From NCBI GenBank assembly GCA_904391645.1, contig CAJFMJ010000002.1:1-43160 (forward strand): a DNA stretch of 43,160 nucleotides. The letters run 5' to 3'. The notes below the pieces were generated by a model. The model saw only the letters and a program-made list of their open reading frames with translations. It made no database searches and was not told the DNA's origin. Positions 23,140-35,823 of the stretch are shown here, piece by piece. The stretch comes from an uncultured Neglectibacter sp. Lineage in GTDB: Bacteria > Bacillota > Clostridia > Oscillospirales > Acutalibacteraceae. Positions within the stretch are counted from its first letter, which is position 1. Every line of letters begins with the position of its first letter. Made by a program: the position numbers and the translations under genes.

Positions 23140-23168
23140 TTGCTTTTGCCACAGTTACCGGGTACAAT
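23140..23168 (+). promoter_or_regulatory. Sigma-A promoter of the response regulator-kinase-HtrA operon
   Basis: TTGCTT (23140-23145), 17-base spacer, TACAAT (23163-23168). The leader is about 60 bases. Confidence 0.6.
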
Positions 23169-23232
23169 AAATTTACATTGGGGAAAAGCACCCAGGAGAG
23201 AGAACTTTCGGAAAAAAGGGAGGGCCTGTTTT

Positions 23233-23928
23233 ATGGCGTCTGGAAAGATCCTGATTGTGGACGACGATACCAATATCTGCGAGCTGTTGCGGCTCTATAT
23301 AGAAAAGGAGGGCTTTGAGGCCTCCATTGCCAACGATGGGGAAGCTGCTTTGAAAATGTTCGACACAGTAAACCCCGACCTGATCCTGTTGGACATCATG
23401 CTCCCCGGCCTGGACGGCTGGCAGGTGTGCCGGGAGATCCGGAAAAAATCCGACCGGCCCATCATCATGCTCACCGCCAAGGGCGAGGTGTTCGACAAGG
23501 TGCTGGGACTGGAGCTGGGAGCCGATGACTATGTGGTGAAGCCCTTTGAAACAAAAGAGGTGATCGCCCGGATCAACGCCGTGCTGCGCCGCAGCGGCAA
23601 GCACAGCGAGGACAAGGACGAAAACAAGGTGGTCACCTATGAAAACCTGTCCATCAACCTGACCAACTACGAGCTGAAGGTAAACGGCGTCCAGGTGGAC
23701 ACGCCCCCCAAGGAGATGGAGCTGATCTATCACTTGGCGTCCAACCCCAACCGGGTGTTCACCCGGGACCAGCTGCTGGACGAGGTGTGGGGCTTTGACT
23801 ACTACGGCGACAGTCGCACGGTGGACGTCCACGTAAAGCGGCTGCGGGAAAAGCTGGAAGGCGCATCGGACAAGTGGGCCCTGAAGACCGTGTGGGGCGT
23901 GGGATATAAATTTGAGGTAAAAGAATGA
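23233..23928 (+). CDS. OmpR/PhoB-type response regulator
   Basis: A 231-residue DNA-binding response regulator. The receiver domain (about 5-118) has the acidic pocket VDDD, phosphorylation site D54 (LILLDIMLPGLDG), MLTAKG and the KPF lysine motif (YVVKPFETKEV). The winged-helix domain follows from about 135 with TPPKEMELIYHLASNPNRVF, DQLLDEVWGFDYYGDSRTVD and VHVKRLREKL, ending in TVWGVGYKFEVKE. ATG 23233 has AAAGGGAGG at 9 bases. It is 30 bases before its kinase gene and heads a four-gene operon that includes the HtrA protease, so envelope stress is a likely signal, as in CssRS or CpxRA systems. Confidence 0.96.
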   Translation: MASGKILIVDDDTNICELLRLYIEKEGFEASIANDGEAALKMFDTVNPDLILLDIMLPGLDGWQVCREIRKKSDRPIIMLTAKGEVFDKVLGLELGADDYVVKPFETKEVIARINAVLRRSGKHSEDKDENKVVTYENLSINLTNYELKVNGVQVDTPPKEMELIYHLASNPNRVFTRDQLLDEVWGFDYYGDSRTVDVHVKRLREKLEGASDKWALKTVWGVGYKFEVKE

Positions 23929-23958
23929 CCAGCTTTTAGTGGCTGAGAAAGGCGAGCC

Positions 23959-25513
23959 ATGCAAAAGAGTATTTTTACAAGGGTGTTGAGCCTGACCATG
24001 GGGATCGTGGTGCTCAGCTTTATCATGCTGGGCGGGGTGATGATGGCCTTTTTCGGCCAGTATTGGCAGACGGAAAAGAAAGAGCTGCTCACCCAAAACG
24101 CCAACTCCATCTCCAAAATGTCCAGCGTGTTCCTGGCCCGCTCCGGCGAGGGCAGCTACACCCTGGAAACTTCGGTGCTCAAGGGCTTTATCGACACCTA
24201 TTCCGCCAGCATTGACGCGGATATCTTCATCACCGACCTGGAGGGGAAAGTCCTTTTGGGCAATTATCCCAACAGCAACCTTACCGCCCCCCAGGCGGTG
24301 CCCCAGCAGATCGTCACCCAAGCCTCCCAGGGGCTGTATGAGGGACGGGGCACCTTTGGCGGGCTGTATCAAAAGCAGTTTTACATCATCGGCGTGCCCA
24401 TGTATGCCGACAGCGCAAAGGAAGTCTGCGTGGGGGTTGTGTTCGCCTCCACCAGCGTCAGCTCGGTAAACGCCTTCCAGGGGGAGGCGCTGCAGATGTT
24501 CCTGGTGGCTGCCGCCGCGGCCCTGGGCGTCACCTTCTGTGTGGTGGGCGCCTTTGCCTACCGGCTGGTGAAGCCCCTGCGGCAGATGTCCGCCGCGGCC
24601 CGCAGCTTTGGCGGCGGGGACTTCTCCGTGCGGGTGCCGGTGACCAGCGCCGACGAGCTGGGCCAGCTGGCCATCTCCTTTAACAACATGGCCAATTCCC
24701 TGTCCAACTCCGAGGGGACCCGGCGCAGCTTTATCGCCAACGTGTCCCACGAGCTGAAGACCCCCATGACCACCATTGCCGGGTTTATCGACGGCATTTT
24801 AGACGGCACCATCCCCCCCGAGCAGCAGGGCAAATACCTGCACATCGTGTCCGACGAGGTGAAGCGCCTGTCGAGGCTTGTGAAGTCCATGCTGGACCTG
24901 TCCCGGATCGACAGCGGGGAGATGAAGCTGCATCCCACCCAGTTTGACATCACCCAGACCTTGGTGACCACCCTGCTGACCTTTGAGCAGAAGATCGACG
25001 AGAAAGGGATCGAGATCCGGGGGTTGGAGGAAACCTCCCCGCAAATGGTGCTGGGCGACCAGGACCTGTTGCACCAGGTGGTGTATAACCTCATTGAAAA
25101 TGCGGTAAAATTTACAAATCAGGATGGCTACATCAAGGTGCAGGTCACCGACGGCATTGACCGCACCACCGTGGTCATTGAGAACAGCGGCCCTGGCATC
25201 GCCCCGGAGGAGCTGCCCATGATCTTCGAGCGGTTCTACAAAACGGACAAGTCCCGCAGCCGGGATAAGAACGGTATGGGCCTGGGGCTGTACATTGTGC
25301 GGACCATCTTGAAGCTCCACGGCGGGGATATCACCGTTTCTTCGGCGGTGGGGGAATTTTGCCGGTTCGAGTTTACCATCCCCAAGCCCCAGGAGGCTCC
25401 CAAGCTGAAGGACACCGGGTCTTTTAAATTGAAAGAATCCTCCACCCGTGGGAAAGGGAAAGAGAAGAAAGAGTCACGCCACGAGAAGGCGGCGCCTGAA
25501 AGGAGCAAGGACG

Positions 25514-25536
<23 letters not shown>
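23959..25536 (+). CDS. Membrane sensor histidine kinase
   Basis: A 525-residue kinase of the HAMP class. Two membrane helices (about 9-36 and 175-203) flank an extracytoplasmic sensor domain of about 140 residues. Then come HAMP (KPLRQMSAAARSFGGGDFSV), the HisKA helix with H264 in NVSHELKTPMTT, and the ATPase domain with NLIENAVKFT (N box), ENSGPGI (G1), FERFYKTDKSRS (F) and GMGLGLYIV (G2). After the normal end (RFEFTIPKP) there is a tail of about 55 charged residues rich in Lys, Glu and Ser, not part of the catalytic core. The last 23 bases overlap the htrA gene. The signal sensed is unknown, but the operon points to protein stress at the membrane. Confidence 0.95.
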
Positions 25537-27147
<1,611 letters not shown>

Positions 27148-27148
<1 letters not shown>

Positions 27149-27636
27149 TGGCAAAGGACAAACTGGAAAAGACAAACGCCCTGCGGCTGTTGGACCGGAT
27201 GAAGATCCCTTACGAGGCCTATACCTACCCGTGCGAGGAGTTTACCGACGGCCTGGAGGTGGCCCAGCAGTTGGGTTTGAACCCGGCGGATGTGTGCAAA
27301 ACCCTGGTCACCGTGGGGAAAAACGGCGGCCACTATGTGTTTGTGCTGCCGGTAAACCAGGAGCTGGACCGGAAAAAAGCTGCCTCTCTGGTGGGGGAAA
27401 AGTCCCTGGAGATGCTCCATGTGAAAGACCTGCTCTCCACCACCGGGTATATCCGGGGCGGTTGCACAGCCCTGGGGATGAAAAAGCGGTTCCCCACGGT
27501 GGTGGACCAGAGCGTCCGGGAGAAAGAGGCCATCTATGTCAGCGGCGGCAAGCGGGGCTTGCAGCTGAAGCTGGCCCCGGCGGACTTGGTGAAAGCAGCC
27601 AGCGCCATGTGGGGCGACGTGATCGTGAAAGGCTGA
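27148..27636 (+). CDS. ybaK: YbaK/EbsC-type aminoacyl-tRNA deacylase
   Basis: A 162-residue editing protein that removes wrongly attached amino acid; the YbaK type acts on Cys-tRNA-Pro. Signature: LDRMKIPYEAYTYP at the N terminus, NPADVCKTLVTVG with the conserved lysine K51, KLAPADLVKAA at the end, and YIRGGCTALGMKKRFPTVV in the core, typical of YbaK rather than of ProX or the INS domain. Its start overlaps the HtrA stop codon (TAATG), with GGGGG upstream. The presence of a translation-fidelity enzyme at the end of an envelope-stress operon is unusual in my experience. A terminator follows. Confidence 0.93.
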
Positions 27637-27786: not shown

Positions 27787-29856
27787 TTATTCGGCGTTTT
27801 CCGCCTTGGATTCCTCGATCACCTTCTGCGCCACGTTCTGGGGAGCTTCCTCATAGCGCTCGAACTCAAAGGTGAAGCTGCCACGGCCCTGGGTGACCTG
27901 GCGGATGAAGGTGGTGAAGTCGTGCATCTCGGCCATGGGGACTTCTGCCTCCACGGTCTGGCGGCCCTCGCCTGCGGGCTCCATGCCCAGCACGCGGCCG
28001 CGGCGCTTGTTCACCTCGCCCATCACGTCGCCCATGTTGCCGTCGGGCACCGTGGCCTTCAGGTGGCCAATGGGCTCCAAAAGCACAGGGTTCGCCTGGG
28101 GCATACCGGCCTTGTAGGCCAGGGTGGCTGCCATCTTAAAGGACATTTCCGAGGAGTCCACCGGGTGGTAGCTGCCGTCGTACAGCACGGCGGACAGGCC
28201 CACTACAGGATACCCAGCCAGGGGCCCCTTCAGGATGCACTCCCGCAGGCCCTTTTCCACCGCGGGGAAGAAGCCCTTGGGCACGGAGCCGCCCACCACG
28301 CGCTCGCCAAACTCCAGGCCTTCGCTGTCGCAGGGGGAGAACTCGATCCACACGTCGCCGAACTGGCCGTGGCCGCCGGTCTGCTTCTTGTGACGGCCCT
28401 GGACCTGCACGGTCTTGCGGATGGTTTCACGGTAGGGCACCTTGGGCTTTTTCAAGGTGATATCCACGCCAAACTTGCTCTTCAGCTTGGAAACAGCCAC
28501 ATCCAGGTGCTGCTCGCCCAAGCCGCTGATGATCATTTCGTGGGTTTCGTTGTTGGTGGAGAACTGCAGGGTGGGATCCTCTTCGGAGAGCCGCATCATG
28601 CCCTGGGCGATCTTGTCTTCCTCGCCCTTCTTGGCGGGGACAATGGCCATGCTCAAAGTGGGGTTGGGATACTCCACGCCTTCCAGGGTGACTTTCCGGG
28701 TGGGGGAGCACAGGGTGTCGCCGGTGTTGGTGGCGGACAGCTTGGGAATGGCGCCAATGTCACCGGCCCCAATGTACTTCACATCCACCTGCTTCTTGCC
28801 CACCATCATCACGGTCTTGCCGATGCGCTCGGTGGCGCCGGTGCGCATATTCACCAGCTGGGAGTCGGTGGACAGCTTGCCGGAAACCACTTTCACATAG
28901 GACAGCTTGCCGATGAAGGGGTCAGCCACAGTCTTGAAGACGATGGCCGCTGCTGCGCCGTCCTCGTTGACAGCCAGCTCTACCGGGTTGCCGTCCACGT
29001 CCAGGCCCACTTCGGCGGCCTTCTCCTCTGCGGAGGGGGCCAGCCAGCAGAGGCCGTCCAGGAACTGCTCCATGCCCCGCATCAGCAGCGCGTCGCCGCA
29101 GAACACCGGGGTGATGGTGCCGGCCTTCACGCCCTTGCTCACGCCCACGATGACTTCTTCGGGGGTGAAGGGTTCGCCGGCAAAATATTTCTCAAAGAGC
29201 TCGTCGTCGGTTTCGGCAACGGCTTCGTAAATAGCGGTGCGCAGGCCTTCCAGACGGTCGCCCATGTCCGGCATGGGGACAGCCACCGGCTTGCCGCCGG
29301 AGTAATCGTAGGCCTTGTACTCCAACAGGTTGATGTAGATGTTTGCCTGGCCGTCCTGGATGAAGGGCACCACCACAGGGCACACCGAGGGGCCAAAGCT
29401 GGCTTTCAGGTCTTCAAACACCCGATAGAACCGGGCGCTCTCGTCGCACAGGCCGTTGACAAAGAAGATCTTGGCAAGGCCGTTTTTCTCGGCGGCGGCA
29501 AAGGCCTTTTCCGTGCCCACGGCCACGCCGTCCCGGCCGGAAACCACCACCAGAACCGTGTCAGCGGCCCGCATGGCTTCGCAGGTGCCGCCCTCAAAGT
29601 CGAACAGTCCGGGGGCGTCCAGCAGGTTGATCTTTTTATTCTTCCACTCCAGAGGGGCCACCGCTGCGGAAATGGAAGCCTTCCGGCGGATCTCCTCGGG
29701 GTCGTAGTCGCACACAGTGTTGCCGTCGCCCACCTTGCCCCGGCGGTCGGAAACCCCAGAGAGGTACAGCATGGCCTCCGCCAAGGAGGTCTTGCCCGCG
29801 CCGCCATGGCCGGTCACCGCCAGGTTGATGATATTTTTAGCCTGATATTGGTTCAT
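27787..29856 (-). CDS. EF-G-like translational GTPase paralogue with degenerate G4 motif
   Basis: A 689-residue protein of the EF-G family, branch 'elongation factor G-like' of Clostridia, separate from the ribosomal fusA. G1 is GHGGAGKT (16-23), G3 is DAPG (80-83) in place of DTPG. The G4 motif, normally NKxD in FVNKMD, reads FVNGLCDE: aligned without gaps, the lysine is G135 and the aspartate is C137. Domains II-V follow (VTLEGVEYPNPTLSMAI, FSTNNETHEMIISGLGEQHL, FSPCDSEGLEFG, LEPIGHLKATVPDGNMG). The family role is not settled (a ribosome-linked factor is likely). ATG 29856 follows GGAAGGAG. It has its own promoter and terminator. The reading frame is intact throughout, so it is not a decaying gene. 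Confidence 0.93.
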   Translation of the reverse strand: MNQYQAKNIINLAVTGHGGAGKTSLAEAMLYLSGVSDRRGKVGDGNTVCDYDPEEIRRKASISAAVAPLEWKNKKINLLDAPGLFDFEGGTCEAMRAADTVLVVVSGRDGVAVGTEKAFAAAEKNGLAKIFFVNGLCDESARFYRVFEDLKASFGPSVCPVVVPFIQDGQANIYINLLEYKAYDYSGGKPVAVPMPDMGDRLEGLRTAIYEAVAETDDELFEKYFAGEPFTPEEVIVGVSKGVKAGTITPVFCGDALLMRGMEQFLDGLCWLAPSAEEKAAEVGLDVDGNPVELAVNEDGAAAAIVFKTVADPFIGKLSYVKVVSGKLSTDSQLVNMRTGATERIGKTVMMVGKKQVDVKYIGAGDIGAIPKLSATNTGDTLCSPTRKVTLEGVEYPNPTLSMAIVPAKKGEEDKIAQGMMRLSEEDPTLQFSTNNETHEMIISGLGEQHLDVAVSKLKSKFGVDITLKKPKVPYRETIRKTVQVQGRHKKQTGGHGQFGDVWIEFSPCDSEGLEFGERVVGGSVPKGFFPAVEKGLRECILKGPLAGYPVVGLSAVLYDGSYHPVDSSEMSFKMAATLAYKAGMPQANPVLLEPIGHLKATVPDGNMGDVMGEVNKRRGRVLGMEPAGEGRQTVEAEVPMAEMHDFTTFIRQVTQGRGSFTFEFERYEEAPQNVAQKVIEESKAENAE

Positions 29857-29954
29857 AACAAACGAAGCTCCTTCCACTGCAAAAATAGCGGCCTTTACCG
29901 CGTTGCCTAGCAATTCCCTGTTTTGTACAAGTTTACTGTCACAAGGCATAGCTA

Positions 29955-30100: not shown

Positions 30101-30131
30101 AAAAGAAACGAGCGCAGGGATTCCTGCGCTC
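30101..30131 (-). terminator. Terminator of the rlmB/pseudo-ATPase transcript
   Basis: On the minus strand GAGCGCAGG-AATC-CCTGCGCTC is a perfect 9-base stem followed by GTTTCTTTT. Confidence 0.85.
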
Positions 30132-30163
30132 GGAAGATAGTTCAACGATATGAGAAAAGGTAT

Positions 30164-33100
30164 TTACCTGCGCAGCTTGGGCAGCAGGATGGTCACCGCC
30201 AGCCAGAACAGCTGGAACAGGAACAGCACCAGGGAAGAGAGCTGCCCCATGGCGCCGAAGCAGGCCAGGAAAGCCACCAATACAAAGCACAGCACCATGG
30301 CTGCATTCTGGATGGCCACCACCAAGCTGATGGTGCGTTTTTCCTCCACACAGGCGGAGATGACGCTCATCATGGATTCCATGCGGCCCTTGGTGGCCAC
30401 CAGGGCGTCGGCCCGGGGAATCTGGGATTTGACCAGCTTGCGGTACTCGTCGCCCAGGCGGTTGTCCAGCACGCCCACAGAGGCAGCGTCGATGCCAAAC
30501 AGCCGGCTGATCAGCTGAGGCGTCACGTTGGGATCGGTGGTGCGCACGATGATGCTGATGCCGCTGTCCTCCAGCCGCTGCAGCTCGTTCTTCCGGCGGC
30601 GGTCGGCGGTGTAGGTCAACACCAGCAGGGCAGCCACTTCGCTGTCCACCCCAATGTACACCACTTGCTGGTTGCCGGAGGCGTACTGGGCTTCCTCTTC
30701 CCGGGGCGGCACTTGCAGCCTGTGGTTGATCAGCAACGAGCGGTCGCCGATGAGGATGGTCTTGCCGTCCACCTTGCCCACAATGCCGCCGCCGTCCTCA
30801 TAGGAGAAGTCCTGCACCTGGGGCAGGGCATCCTCGTTTTCGCTGATAACCTGGTCGAACACGCCGGACAGGGGGCCGCCCACCTCTTTCATCAGGGCGG
30901 AGGCGGCCATCACGGCGTCCTCGGCAGCGGCCCGGCCGCCGAAGGTGCGGATGCCGTTGAGCACCACGGTGCCCCGGGGGAACAGGTCCTCCGCGTCCAC
31001 CATGACGGCGTTGACGTTGCCCAGCTGTTCCACGCCCTCATAGCCCACCACCATGGCGCCGGCGCGGCGGGCCGTGCGGCACAGGCGGCTGATGGGCAGG
31101 TTCACCGACAGCATATTGGACACCGCCACGCTGGCACAGCAGGCGGCTGCCAAGGCGCTGACAGCAGTGGGTACGCTCTTGGTGATCAGCAGGGAGGCGA
31201 TGCACAGCACCAGGCTGGCGATCAGGCCGATGGGGGCCATCAGCTGGGAAGCAGACTCCGAGGGGTCGGGCTTGTAAGAGAGCTCTAAGAACCGCTTTAA
31301 GAACCCGGCGCGGCACTGGTAGGCGATCACGGGGGATTCGGAAACGCAGTCTTTGGCCATTTTCAAAGCGGTGTTGTGGTCTTCAAAGAGGCGCACGCTG
31401 TACTTTTCCTCCCGGGAGGTGACAAACCGGAAGTTGGAGTGGATGCGGCGGATCATGGTCAGTTTGCCTGCGGCGTTCAGGAACAGCGTGGCAGCCAGGA
31501 TCACCGCGTACAGGTGAAGTTCCCCGTTGATCAGGTCGTCCTGGAAGAAGGCGGCTGCCACTGCCTGGACAGTCACCGCCACCGCCGCCACCGCCGCAGC
31601 GGAGTCGGAGTTGGCGTTAAAGGAGAACAGGGCCTTCAAGCCGTTGGCAATGGTGCGGTAGCAGATCCCCACCACCACGGCCAAGAACACCAGGGTCAGC
31701 ACCACGTACACCACCGGCAGGGAGCCGGGGTCGGCCACGCCGCCAAACTGGGCGCCAAAGATCACGTTCACCAGGGCCAGCAGCACCGTACACACGCCGG
31801 TGATCATCATCCGCAGGGTCAGCTCCCGCATTTCGCCACGCAGCTCGTGGGAGATGGACTTGGCATCCTCGGGGCCGGTGTAGTCGTCGATGGACTCCCC
31901 GGTGTCCGCATCGGGAATGGGGGGCTCCTCCGGGGCGGGATTTTCCAGTTTCTTGTTGCGCACCCGGCGTTTGGGGGCGTTTTTGCGCTCTTGGCGCTCG
32001 GCCGCCTGGCGCAGCTCTTCCGATTCAGAGAGCAGGGCGCTTTGCAGCACTTCTGCGTGGATGATGTGGGTGGGCACGCTCCGGGGCCGGTATTGGTAAA
32101 TGCTGGCCACCTGGGGAGGCTCTGTGACCGGCCGGTTGAGCACCACGGTCTTTTCCTCCACAGGGGGCTGTGCGGGAGCCGGTGCGGCGGGCACCTGGGG
32201 AACAGGCATGGCCTGGGTGGGGGCTTCCACCACAGGGGCAGCCGGGGCAGGTGCTTCCGGAACGGGCGCCTGCTGGGCCATGGGAGCCTCTGCCGGGTCG
32301 GGCTCTTCCACAGGGGCTTGGGGAGTGGGCTCCTCCGGGGCGGCAGGCGCCTGGGAGGCCAGGTCTTCAAAGGAAAGCTGCTGCTCCACCGGCTGGGAAG
32401 GCTCTGCCTGTTCCCGTGCCGGGGCGGCTTCCTGGAGTTGTTCTTTGGGCTGGTACAGCCGGATAGGCTCCTCCACAGCGGGCTCTTCCTGAGGCGGGAG
32501 TTCCTCCACAGGCTGCAGGGCCTCTGCCGGGGCGGGTGTTTCCACCGGGGCGGGGACCTCCGCCGGTGCCTCCTGGGGCGGGAGCTGTTCCACGGGCTCC
32601 AGGGGGGCGTGGGACTCCAACACCCGGTTGATGGCCTCATCGGAAACGGGGGCCTGCTGGCCCACCCGCTGGAGCTCCACCGTGTCGTTGAGCACGTTCA
32701 GCTTGATCTCCATGGTCTGGTGGTCGGAGGATTCCAACATGGCCTTTTGCAGGTCGGACACCTGCTTGCTGCCCTCCACGCCAATGCCGTGCTGGCGGGC
32801 ATAGGGGTCGGCTGCAAAGGAGGTCACCGGCATGGGGGCCACCACGCCAAACTCGTCGGCGATCTGTTCCTCGTCCACCCCGGCGGTCTGGACCGCTTCT
32901 GCCACCCGGCGGCGGCGTTCCTTCTGCAGCCGCTGGAAGTTCTGTTCCACCTCGTCGTCAATGGCCTTTTTGGAGTCATCAAACAGGGCTTTATAGGTTT
33001 CTTCCTCGCTGGTCAGCTCCCCTGCCGGGTCGTAACCCATGCGGTACTCGTCGATGGGCTTCAGCTGGATGCCGTAATACAGGTCGTCCTCGTTCTCGTC

Positions 33101-33559
33101 AAAGTCGGGCACCCGCTTTTTCCGGCCAAACAGCCCCCGGCGCTTCTTTTTCTTCTCTTTTTTGTCCTTTTTCCCAGAAGCCTCTTCCACCACTTCCCGG
33201 CGGTCCTCCTCCCGCAGGGGGAGTTCCACCGTGCCCGTGGCATAGGCGTTCAGGTCTGCCTGGGCCTCTTGCCGGGGCTTTGCCGGCTGCTGCCCTTGAG
33301 GCTGAGGCTGGGCCGCCTGGGGCTGCTGCCCCTGAGGCTGCGCCTGTTGGGGTTGGGTGGGCTGCTGGCTTTGGGGAGCAGCGGGACGGGGGGCAGGCTG
33401 GCCTGCCGGGCGCTGGGGAGGCCTTGCCCCGGGCTGACGGGACTGCCTTTCCTGCGCAAGGTCTTTCCGGGCGGCCTGCTGGGCGGCTTCCACTTCCCGT
33501 TTGGCCCGCTCTTCCGCCAGGATATCCTCCAGGGTAAATTCCTTGTTGTCCTGTGACAT
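30164..33559 (-). CDS. Large membrane protein resembling a P1B-type ATPase without catalytic motifs
   Basis: An 1131-residue protein in two parts. Residues 1 to about 575 are cytoplasmic and mostly disordered: a helical start (FTLEDILAEERAKREVEAA), a Gln/Pro/Ala tract, a lysine-rich patch (GKKDKKEKKKKRRGLFGRKK), and long Glu/Pro/Ala repeats. From about 578 the layout follows heavy-metal P-type ATPases: four membrane helices, a short loop, two helices, a large loop, two helices. The large loop aligns as RAGAMVVGYEGVEQLGNVNA then VMVDAEDLF where DKTGT is expected (D855 is followed by AEDL), GDRSLL in the nucleotide-domain place, and TTDP (1007-1010) for TGD. GDGxND, TGE and the CPC metal motif (here VNLPIS) are absent. 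It cannot work as a normal pump; it may be a scaffold or sensor. It lies 18 bases behind rlmB. Confidence 0.85.
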   Translation of the reverse strand: MSQDNKEFTLEDILAEERAKREVEAAQQAARKDLAQERQSRQPGARPPQRPAGQPAPRPAAPQSQQPTQPQQAQPQGQQPQAAQPQPQGQQPAKPRQEAQADLNAYATGTVELPLREEDRREVVEEASGKKDKKEKKKKRRGLFGRKKRVPDFDENEDDLYYGIQLKPIDEYRMGYDPAGELTSEEETYKALFDDSKKAIDDEVEQNFQRLQKERRRRVAEAVQTAGVDEEQIADEFGVVAPMPVTSFAADPYARQHGIGVEGSKQVSDLQKAMLESSDHQTMEIKLNVLNDTVELQRVGQQAPVSDEAINRVLESHAPLEPVEQLPPQEAPAEVPAPVETPAPAEALQPVEELPPQEEPAVEEPIRLYQPKEQLQEAAPAREQAEPSQPVEQQLSFEDLASQAPAAPEEPTPQAPVEEPDPAEAPMAQQAPVPEAPAPAAPVVEAPTQAMPVPQVPAAPAPAQPPVEEKTVVLNRPVTEPPQVASIYQYRPRSVPTHIIHAEVLQSALLSESEELRQAAERQERKNAPKRRVRNKKLENPAPEEPPIPDADTGESIDDYTGPEDAKSISHELRGEMRELTLRMMITGVCTVLLALVNVIFGAQFGGVADPGSLPVVYVVLTLVFLAVVVGICYRTIANGLKALFSFNANSDSAAAVAAVAVTVQAVAAAFFQDDLINGELHLYAVILAATLFLNAAGKLTMIRRIHSNFRFVTSREEKYSVRLFEDHNTALKMAKDCVSESPVIAYQCRAGFLKRFLELSYKPDPSESASQLMAPIGLIASLVLCIASLLITKSVPTAVSALAAACCASVAVSNMLSVNLPISRLCRTARRAGAMVVGYEGVEQLGNVNAVMVDAEDLFPRGTVVLNGIRTFGGRAAAEDAVMAASALMKEVGGPLSGVFDQVISENEDALPQVQDFSYEDGGGIVGKVDGKTILIGDRSLLINHRLQVPPREEEAQYASGNQQVVYIGVDSEVAALLVLTYTADRRRKNELQRLEDSGISIIVRTTDPNVTPQLISRLFGIDAASVGVLDNRLGDEYRKLVKSQIPRADALVATKGRMESMMSVISACVEEKRTISLVVAIQNAAMVLCFVLVAFLACFGAMGQLSSLVLFLFQLFWLAVTILLPKLRR

Positions 33560-33577
33560 AGGCTGAAAATCCTCCTT

Positions 33578-34366
33578 TTACGGATTGACCGCTTTCAAGC
33601 CGCTGCGCTGGCGGGAAACCTCATAGCAGAGGATGCCGGCCGCCACCGATGCGTTCAGCGAGTTTATGTTTCCTTTTAATGGCAGGGATACCACAAAGTC
33701 GGCTTTTTCCTTGACCAACCGGCCCACGCCCTTGCCCTCGGAGCCGATGACCAGGGCCACCGGGCCGGTGAAGTCCGTCTGGCACCAGGGGGCGCCGTCC
33801 ATGTCGGCGGCGTAGACCCACAGGCCCCGCTGTTTCAGTTCCTCCAGCAGGGAGGCCAGGTTGTTCACCCGGGCCACCGGCAGGTGTTCCACCGCTCCGG
33901 CGGAGGCCTTCCCCACCGCGTAGGTCAAGCCCACGCTGCGCCGCTTGGGGACGATCACCCCGTGGGCCCCGGCGCATTCCGCCGTGCGGATCACCGCGCC
34001 CAGGTTGTGGGGGTCCTCCAGCTCGTCGCAGATGACAAAGAAGGGGGGCTCGCCCCGCTCCTGTGCCCGCTGGAACAGGTCTTCCACCGTGGCGTATTCC
34101 TTCACTGCGGCCACTGCCACCACCCCTTGGTGGTTGGCCCCGCCGCACAGGTGTTCCAATTTTTTGGGGTCCGCCTCTTTGATGGTGGCCCCGGCCTCTT
34201 TGGCTTTGGCAATCAGCGCCTGCAGCCCGCCGGAGCGCTCGCCCCGCTGGACGTAAAGGCTGTCAATGGCCCGTCCGGCTTTGAGCGCCTCGGTCACCGC
34301 GTTGCGTCCGGCGATGATGTCCGTGCCCCGGGGGGCTTCCCGGCGATTGTTTGGGTGTTTTTCCAT
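33578..34366 (-). CDS. rlmB: 23S rRNA 2'-O-methyltransferase RlmB (TrmH/SpoU family)
   Basis: A 262-residue SPOUT methyltransferase that methylates a ribose in the peptidyl-transferase region of 23S rRNA (Gm2251 in E. coli). N-terminal substrate-binding domain from about 15 (DIIAGRNAVTEALKAGRAID), then the knotted domain with motif 1 DELEDPHNLGAVIRTAECAG, motif 2 ALVIGSEGKGVGRLV and motif 3 LPLKGNINSLNASVAAGI. ATG 34366 follows AAAGAGGA; a longer frame start lies beyond the promoter and is excluded. It is the first gene of a two-gene transcript with the pseudo-P-type ATPase. Family assignment is firm; the exact rRNA site is inferred. Confidence 0.94.
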   Translation of the reverse strand: MEKHPNNRREAPRGTDIIAGRNAVTEALKAGRAIDSLYVQRGERSGGLQALIAKAKEAGATIKEADPKKLEHLCGGANHQGVVAVAAVKEYATVEDLFQRAQERGEPPFFVICDELEDPHNLGAVIRTAECAGAHGVIVPKRRSVGLTYAVGKASAGAVEHLPVARVNNLASLLEELKQRGLWVYAADMDGAPWCQTDFTGPVALVIGSEGKGVGRLVKEKADFVVSLPLKGNINSLNASVAAGILCYEVSRQRSGLKAVNP

Positions 34367-34443
34367 GGTGAGTCCTCTTTCTGCGGCCCGGCCCATTGGC
34401 GGGGCCCCGGGCGTTTTCCCGGCGATAGACATACTTTGCAACC

Positions 34444-34472
34444 ATTATAGCACAGTCCCTTGGAAATCTCAA
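34444..34472 (-). promoter_or_regulatory. Sigma-A promoter of rlmB
   Basis: On the minus strand TTGAGA (34467-34472), 17-base spacer, exact TATAAT (34444-34449) within the extended form TGTGCTATAAT. Confidence 0.8.
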
Positions 34473-34598: not shown

Positions 34599-35017
34599 TT
34601 TTCCACAGAGATGCCCGGTGTAACCTGTGTTTCCCACCGGGAATGTGGAAAACTCTGTGGAAACTGTGAAAAACCCTTGTCCCTATGCGGTTTTCAACTT
34701 TCCCCCGTTTCCACCAGGGAACTTTTTTATGTAAACAAACCCTTTCATTTTTCCTTTTTGAAACAAAAAACGCTATTTTTCAAGATTGGAAAATGCCCCA
34801 ATATACAGAAAAAACGGGAAAGCTGTCCGCCCTATCTTGTGTCAAGTGGAAACGGGAAAAATCTTTTCCCACAAACTGTCCACAGGGATTTAACATACAT
34901 TTCACCAAGGGGAGTTAGCCGGGGCTTTTCGGGCTTTCCACAAGAAAAGGCTATGCTTTTCCCCGGTTTTGTGGTATACTAGCGGCAAAACAAGGGGGAT
35001 TCCGGCTTGTTTCCACA
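34599..35017. promoter_or_regulatory. Cluster of DnaA-box-like nonamers
   Basis: Exact matches to TTWTNCACA: TTTTCCACA at 34599-34607 (+), TGTGGAAAA at 34644-34652 (-), TGTGAAAAA at 34665-34673 (-). One mismatch: TGTGGAAAC 34656-34664 (-), CTTTCCACA 34934-34942 (+), GTTTCCACA 35009-35017 (+). Weaker: TTTCCCACA 34865-34873 and CTGTCCACA 34876-34884. Three of them follow each other at 12- and 9-base steps on one strand. Confidence 0.55.
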
Positions 35018-35109
35018 AAAAGCCCCTCCCATCGCAGGGATTTTTCAAAAAAACCTGGATGAATATTTATACGCGAATTTTGTCGAATAACCATTTTGGA
35101 GGTTTTACC

Positions 35110-35823
35110 ATGCGGGAAGATATCTGTTCCATCCCTGTAAACGACGTATTTATGCCCAAAGACGGCTGCCCTTTCTGCCGGATGCGGGATATGCTGGAGG
35201 ACCGGATGGCCACCTACATCACCGGCGCGGCCATGATGGAGCCTGACGTGCGGGTGGAAACCAACCGGCTGGGCTTTTGCACCGAGCACTTCAACCAGAT
35301 CCTGGCCCGGGGCAGCCGGCTTTCGGTGGCGCTGATCTTAGAAAGCCTGTTGGCCACGGTGAAGGACGAGGTGTTCCCCCAGGGGAAGACCGCCCCCAAG
35401 AAGGTGGTTGCGGCAGTGAAGTCCCGGCAGCAGCACTGCTTTATCTGCGAGAACATTGAAAAAAACACCGCCCACCTGCTGGACAGCACCTTGAAGCTGT
35501 GGCAGACCGACCCGGATTTCCGGGAGCTGTACAGCCAGCAGCCCTATATCTGCCTGCCCCACTACGGCCAGGTGATGGAGGCGGCCATGAAGATGCCCAA
35601 AAAGAACTTCCAGGTGTTCCAGCAGGAAACGGACCGGCTGGCCAAAAAGTACCTGGAAGAGTTAAACGGCGACGTGACCCACTTCTGCCGGATGTTCGAC
35701 TACCGCAATGCCGGCGGGGACTGGGGCAACTCCAAGGATGCCATTGAGCGGGCCATCCAGTACCTCACCGCCCGGGTGCCGGAGGACCGCCAGAAGGCCG
35801 ATGAAAAGAACCGTGCCTTTTAA
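35110..35823 (+). CDS. DUF6062-like protein with two C-x2-C...C-x2-H metal sites
   Basis: A 237-residue cytoplasmic protein of a family that, to my knowledge, has no known function (DUF6062). It has a clear internal duplication: C20-x2-C23 (CPFCRMRD) with C57-x2-H60 (GFCTEHF), then C110-x2-C113 (CFICENIEKN) with C148-x2-H151 (ICLPHYGQ). The gap between the two halves of each site is 33 and 34 residues. A further H191-x-C193 (HFCRMFDYRN) closes it. Two structural zinc sites are likely. ATG 35110 has GGAGG at 8 bases. Its last 23 bases overlap the glycosylase gene, so the two are coupled, which suggests a role near DNA or oxidative damage; this is inference only. Confidence 0.85.
   Translation: MREDICSIPVNDVFMPKDGCPFCRMRDMLEDRMATYITGAAMMEPDVRVETNRLGFCTEHFNQILARGSRLSVALILESLLATVKDEVFPQGKTAPKKVVAAVKSRQQHCFICENIEKNTAHLLDSTLKLWQTDPDFRELYSQQPYICLPHYGQVMEAAMKMPKKNFQVFQQETDRLAKKYLEELNGDVTHFCRMFDYRNAGGDWGNSKDAIERAIQYLTARVPEDRQKADEKNRAF

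Follow-up and report, generated by a model that had tools for sequence, protein, structure and literature searches.

The window analyzed here is the whole 43,160-nucleotide stretch from an uncultured Neglectibacter sp. (assembly GCA_904391645.1, contig CAJFMJ010000002.1, positions 1 to 43,160). On its minus strand lies a gene for a protein that has the build of a P1B heavy-metal ATPase but lacks the motifs by which such pumps work, and its identity as a pseudo-ATPase is regarded as nearly certain. The open reading frame is uninterrupted over 1131 codons, in agreement with a preliminary description drawn from the sequence alone. The gene and the parts of its protein are located as follows.

30164..33559, minus strand: pseudo-P1B-ATPase gene, 1131 amino acids, stop codon included in the span
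31838..33559, minus strand: cytoplasmic head (residues 1-574), disordered for the most part but bearing short conserved motifs
33513..33538, minus strand: N-terminal motif FTLEDILAE, residues 8-16, which opens a predicted helix at residues 10-39
30167..31837, minus strand: P-type ATPase-like core, residues 575-1131, from structure model and fold search
31268..31414, minus strand: shrunken actuator (A) domain, residues 716-764, without TGE
30977..30997, minus strand: DAEDLFP, which stands where pumps have DKTGT (residues 855-861; across the family x-x-x-[DE]-[LIV]-[FY]-P)
30608..30973, minus strand: nucleotide-binding (N) domain fold, residues 863-984, with HP changed to GP and with invariant Gly925 and Gly938
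30521..30535, minus strand: DPNVT, which stands where pumps have TGD (residues 1009-1013)

The P1B heavy-metal ATPases (CopA, ZntA; TIGR01525) have in common with this protein the eight-helix layout, the folds of the phosphorylation (P) and N domains, the loop order and detectable sequence homology. The NCBIfam model for CopA matched residues 795-1042 at E=2.9e-16 and TIGR01525 matched at E=1.2e-13, with scores that miss the curated cut-offs (58.8 versus 1316 bits and 50.8 versus 346.25, respectively); a Pfam search of the protein gave no match. Among 83 members of the family, 56 matched the CopA model (best 3.1e-17), while Pfam was practically empty, with E1-E2_ATPase in one of the 83. When residues 575-1131 were compared with solved structures, LpCopA (3rfu) was matched at 5.4e-15, and Foldseek with the predicted fold of these residues found 4bbj at 2.3e-18; these sequence and fold-search matches rule out a chance fold. 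KdpB and other P-type ATPases gave general fold matches to the core as well. The core was modeled with a predicted local distance difference test score (pLDDT) of 87.2 and a predicted template modelling score (pTM) of 0.81, and it adopts the P-type ATPase fold over its full length, which is the outcome that the preliminary description had expected of a structure prediction. Eight membrane helices are predicted in the P1B order MA, MB, M1-M6, according to our own reading of the model's helix list, together with the P and N domains and an A domain in reduced form. In the full-length model the mean pLDDT is 58.3 and the pTM 0.50. The segment just before the phosphorylation site, said earlier to be alignable, is indeed so, since AGAMVVGYEGVEQLGNVNAV of the window protein aligns with GLLIKSAESLENLHNVDTV of a true CopA-type ATPase of the same genome.

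The loss of the pump motifs extends over the whole family. Counts were taken from aligned columns in 106 fetched members; pattern searches over whole chains gave stray TGE, HP, TGD and CPC matches, and a TGE string at residues 553-555 of the head is unrelated to the A domain. Left out of the 106 were L001 and L035 (the window itself), copies of L059, L088 and L105 (L053-L055), two fragments (L022, L024), one member with an in-frame stop (L050) and the true ATPases L002, L056-L058 and L064; some incomplete rows are included, namely L003 (unread bases), L062 and L086. The TGE and GDGxND columns are empty in all 106. In the DKTGT columns neither the Lys nor the last Thr occurs in any member, and the Asp occurs in 57/106, among them DAEDL of the window copy with Asp855. 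The His of HP is absent throughout and its Pro is present in 68/106, the window copy having GP. The first Cys of CPC was found in 3/106 and the proline of M4 in 70/106; the window copy has V-A-V at this place, with Ala where others keep proline, and its other metal-ligand positions are Ala and Met in M5 and Phe, Ala and Val in M6. Replacement of the M5 and M6 metal ligands is nearly universal among the 106: at the Tyr and Asn positions of M5, the residues listed account for 102 and 100 members and do not include the ligand, and the Met of M6 occurs in 2/106. The Asp of TGD is retained in 101/106 (Asp1009) and is found in TTDP of the window copy. At the position whose Glu helps to hold adenine in P1B pumps, as in ATP7B, the residues listed account for 95/106 members and Glu is not one of them, and the His is gone. 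Gly925 and Gly938 are present in 106/106, and Asn stands beside the second glycine in 39/106.

Thus the motifs are lost as first described, and the statement that no catalytic motif is left holds for motifs, though not for every residue, in that Asp855 and the Asp of TGD remain. These two residues could hint at an active ATPase with unusual chemistry acting through Asp855. Such an enzyme is very improbable, however, for 49 of the 106 members are without the Asp at the phosphorylation position, and the Lys, TGE, GDGxND and the His of HP are missing from every one. The protein would be unable to undergo phosphorylation and dephosphorylation or to carry a metal ion.

In addition to single residues, whole segments have been removed. 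The actuator loop has 54 residues in the window copy (family median 54, range 1-65) versus 112-113 in four true pumps, and the stretch from TGD to M5, which is the end of the P domain, has 52 (median 52, range 0-54) versus 83. From DKTGT to TGD the window copy has 155 residues (median 154, range 97-164) and the true pumps 155-161; the low ends of these ranges presumably come from incomplete or poorly aligned rows. Both shortenings are common to all 106 members and the N domain length is unchanged. It follows that the cuts took half of the actuator and the Mg-binding end of the P domain, and left the N domain and the first half of the P domain in place. Compared with the P1B ATPases, the family is therefore without DKTGT, TGE, GDGxND, HP and metal ligands, has a halved A domain and a P domain truncated at its end by 31 residues, and carries a long head instead of metal-binding domains and a fixed rlmB neighbor.

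What has taken the place of the old motifs is itself conserved. The position of the old Asp is now followed by [DE]-[LIV]-[FY]-P, and TGD has given way to D-P-N-[IV]-T; at the old site Phe/Tyr860 is kept in 102/106, Pro861 in 88/106, Asp/Glu858 in 93/106 and Asn1011 in 91/106. In the alignment of 83 members, Trp1119, Tyr983, Tyr968, Phe860, Asp1009, Gly938, Gly925 and Asn1011 are among the columns with the strongest conservation, and the P1 and N segments show the highest mean conservation in the core (1.60 and 1.47). This distribution bears on the idea that the protein is a regulatory partner, which pairs or competes with an active P-type ATPase and tunes the active pump. Pseudo-enzymes often regulate their active kin, and five true P-type ATPases with DKTGT are encoded in the same genome, of which the CopA-type ATPase mentioned above is the sole other match in that genome, at 20 percent identity. 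All five, however, lie on other contigs of the assembly, P1B pumps mostly act as single chains, and conservation in the membrane helices does not, overall, exceed that in the P1 and N segments, so that a partner role appears improbable.

The family was traced through genomes of one order, which we take to be the Oscillospirales of GTDB, judging from the named kin. A search of genome contigs gave 32 loci, of which 22, from Acutalibacter, Neglectibacter and their relatives, show 61-87 percent identity and 10, mostly titled as uncultured Ruminococcus or Clostridiales, show 31-34 percent. A wide profile matched 137/147 order genomes with one match each (E up to 1e-48; some matches, e.g. in G130, G182 and G197, are partial) and 112/117 of the better ones. 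A narrow profile missed members, as it matched 111 of the same 147; in a family-level sample it found 108/120, that is, 109 matches less one true ATPase (G090 = L064). In a class sample all 12 order genomes scored at least 392 bits, and none of 279 genomes outside the order had a family-grade match, the best reaching 148 bits over positions 212-485 only; three of these outside matches were read and are ordinary ATPases. In a phylum sample 1e-45 was reached by 6/6 order genomes and by 0/392 others. These draws overlap, many of the 137 genomes and nearly all matches outside the order are known by profile score alone, and the class and phylum passes with the wide profile scored 3 or 4 candidates per genome, through which a very divergent outsider could escape.

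In a tree of 42 of the 83 alignment members, the family formed one clade against 8 true ATPases with support 100/100, although branches are long and the order inside the clade is unsure. Among the profile matches that were read, the only proteins with DKTGT were L002, L056-L058 and L064; their loci are without rlmB, and those placed in the tree fall outside the family clade. No orthologue with an intact DKTGT was found among the fetched loci. The ratio of nonsynonymous to synonymous change (dN/dS) in 13 pairs was 0.11-0.35 for the core and 0.13-0.39 for the head, values that are rough because synonymous sites are close to saturated in several of the pairs. A recent mutant or decaying copy is ruled out by the conservation across the order and by a dN/dS below 0.4 in all 13 pairs, and the earlier view of a kept protein is thereby upheld; the motif loss and the rlmB link likewise reach across the order, beyond close kin. 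Hence we see an order-wide family with one copy per genome, descended from a P1B ATPase of the copper/zinc type, in which the catalytic machinery, most simply, was lost once before the order radiated.

The gene lies directly behind rlmB, whose stop codon precedes the ATG of the pseudo-ATPase by 18 nucleotides. The elements of this arrangement are:

33578..34441, minus strand: rlmB, 23S rRNA (guanosine-2251) 2'-O-methyltransferase (TIGR00186, 244.5 bits versus a cut-off of 160.15)
33570..33577, minus strand: ribosome binding site AAGGAGGA, between the rlmB stop and the ATG
34444..34472, minus strand: sigma-70-like promoter TTGAGA-17-TATAAT (11/12), ahead of rlmB (2 sites in the region, 1.1 expected)
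30109..30132, minus strand: terminator-like hairpin of 10 pairs with a T-rich tail, just past the pseudo-ATPase stop (15 sites in the region, 8.1 expected)

The true start of rlmB is likely at 34366. The promoter scan found none between rlmB and the pseudo-ATPase gene, and the layout of putative promoter, ribosome site and hairpin fits a two-gene operon. Across the order rlmB was immediately upstream in 84/87 loci with enough flank, a count from which the window and its copies, 20 short-flank loci and L024 are excluded. The three exceptions are L028, with a frame break and rlmB further up, L003, where the locus starts inside the head and therefore includes no rlmB, and L050, where the in-frame stop leaves rlmB adjoining the first piece. 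Furthermore, in 12 genomes chosen for a missing match (7 of the 10 wide-profile misses among 147 and 5 of the 11 narrow-profile misses among 120), rlmB reached its full score in only two, G146 and G093. In G146 the contig ends inside an apparent head, and the other ten may reflect assembly gaps.

Such a link could mean that the protein is a membrane anchor for ribosome assembly or translation, holding RlmB or ribosomes near the membrane. The constant neighborhood and the scarcity of rlmB in genomes without a match speak for it. On the other hand, an assembly gap would take out both neighbors together, G093 has rlmB alone, and rlmB is widespread outside the order (over the cut-off in 10/14 control genomes), where the pseudo-ATPase was not found; an anchor of this kind is thus doubtful, to about the same degree as a regulatory partner.

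No conserved neighbor besides rlmB emerged when 89 loci were clustered, with no other same-strand cluster exceeding 27 loci; overlapping and antisense shadow frames were set aside, and far loci had about 2.5 kb downstream. Around the two genes in the window, a paralogue of elongation factor G (27787-29949, minus strand) comes next after the pseudo-ATPase, an arrangement also seen in many close relatives; its best NCBIfam match is the subfamily NF009381 at 867.6 bits, and it scores 584 against the cut-off of 659.4 for TIGR00484, the canonical factor. At 23140-27636 on the plus strand, a WalRK/YycF-like two-component pair, an HtrA-like protease and a YbaK-type Cys-tRNA(Pro) deacylase stand in a row, and the order of kinase, protease and deacylase is the same in L003, L023 and L024. 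A 284-residue protein (34969-35823, plus strand), divergent from rlmB, is kept near there in many close relatives and had no NCBIfam match at 1e-10.

The head had been described as 575 disordered residues. Most of it is indeed of low confidence (545 of the 1131 residues in the full-length model are below pLDDT 50, mostly in the head), but it contains the helix at 10-39 and conserved short motifs. This helix has pLDDT 74-78 at residues 11-30 and 60 at 31-40, and a second one, at 197-225, has 71-77 at 201-220. The N-terminal motif was found in its loose form in 34/86 members and in its strict form in 26/86, where shuffled sequences gave 0.02 and 0.0 expected and mid-head controls 0/44; L071 has two copies by pattern search, and L070 and L073 have extra variants by eye. 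In its own genome the strict motif occurs once. Throughout 79 order genomes it gave 28 matches versus 4 for the reversed pattern, of which 14 are assigned by position to family heads; of the other 14, L140 and L141 look like family heads cut at contig ends and 12 lie in unrelated frames, three of them of elongation factor Ts. These counts led us to reject, for the strict form, the idea of a signal common to many proteins.

Further stretches of the head seem, by eye, to recur in close and distant clades. They are a Lys-rich stretch at residues ~130-170 (GLFGRKK-PDFDE-ED-YYG), QTMEIKLNVLN at ~275-300 and YQYRPRSVPTHIIHAEVLQSALLSE at ~488-512, for which the Ruminococcus-type clade shows weak counterparts.

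Among kinases, pseudo-enzymes are a familiar phenomenon. The nearest precedent found for the present family is human TMEM94/ERMA, a protein with a P-type fold that is without TGES, showed no detected ATPase activity, binds AMPPCP with micromolar affinity, has ten membrane helices and most resembles SPCA, its authors leaving the question open (PMC12134183). Its status is disputed, as another group calls TMEM94 a Mg pump of the endoplasmic reticulum (PMC13322241). The two are likened by description only: TMEM94 is eukaryotic, SPCA-like and has ten helices, whereas the window family is P1B-like with eight in the model. A lipid-shaped density in this related-looking protein (PMC12134183) raises the idea of movement without an ATPase cycle, for instance by leakage of lipid or ions along the pump-like helices. 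All eight helices are retained in the model and the M4 proline is kept in many members, but the window copy has Ala there, the metal ligands of M4, M5 and M6 are mostly replaced and no energy source is at hand, which makes such a path quite unlikely. For bacteria, no pseudo-P-type ATPase was found in the portions consulted of the open-licence literature, and the passages seen of a review in the Journal of Biological Chemistry (PMC10654040) contain no inactive bacterial P-type ATPase.

Taken together, the pump build, the lost pumping parts and the adjacency to rlmB make it probable that the protein now acts as a sensor or scaffold. To this reading, reuse at the membrane as a scaffold or ligand sensor, we give a probability of about 0.55, and the preliminary guess of a scaffold, sensor or regulator is plausible. 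The kept pump fold, the shared excisions, the strong retention and the operon-like layout are seen in sequence and predicted models. In P-type pumps the DKTGT and TGD loops lie opposite one another where phosphorylation takes place; as it is these two loops that were replaced, a rebuilt site is plausible, and a ligand may bind there. The membrane-fixed pseudo-enzyme would then read a ligand, probably a small one, at the rebuilt cleft, or present binding motifs on a long arm, or do both. The old phosphorylation and nucleotide cleft would have become a new site, in which [DE]-[LIV]-[FY]-P faces D-P-N-[IV]-T with the two invariant glycines of the N domain. The long cytoplasmic chain would offer short motifs, foremost the [FY][ST][LIV][DE][DE]IL-x-E helix, to cytosolic partners, and the fixed link with rlmB may point to translation or growth control as the source of the partner or signal.

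Several observations weigh against the scaffold or sensor reading. The loose N-terminal motif is absent by pattern search from 52/86 members, some of which have looser look-alikes by eye, and those without it include all six tested Ruminococcus-type members (L025, L026, L028, L031, L032 and L033, of which L028 has a broken frame). Also without it are three members of one family of the order (L082-L084, family f10), which are headless at ~550 residues and still lie right after rlmB. The head is accordingly not essential to the family, and a scaffold based on it cannot be the whole function. As for the cleft, its conserved residues could be structural only, and in the full-length model pLDDT is below 50 for residues 717-751 of the actuator and for residues 1034-1051, although both stretches are better in the core model. 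In G093 (L151), a 1.1-Mb genome searched as a whole with the narrow profile only, rlmB is present with no relative in the 4.7 kb behind it, where unrelated frames lie; this genome thus seems to do without the gene, the tie to rlmB appears less than strict, and the link may be mere gene order. A fuller picture, in which the once-excised pseudo-pump, with its ligand-reading cleft, co-expression with RlmB and motif-bearing disordered arm, would form a device signaling from membrane to translation of a kind not met in the literature consulted, is offered as a tentative and rather unlikely extension of the scaffold or sensor reading.

A label of "copper-exporting ATPase", as might be taken from such weak matches, would be wrong here. 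In conclusion, almost all sampled genomes from a major gut order have retained a pump fold that lost its chemistry. The family marks the order, and it opens the question of what a pump fold does without pumping.

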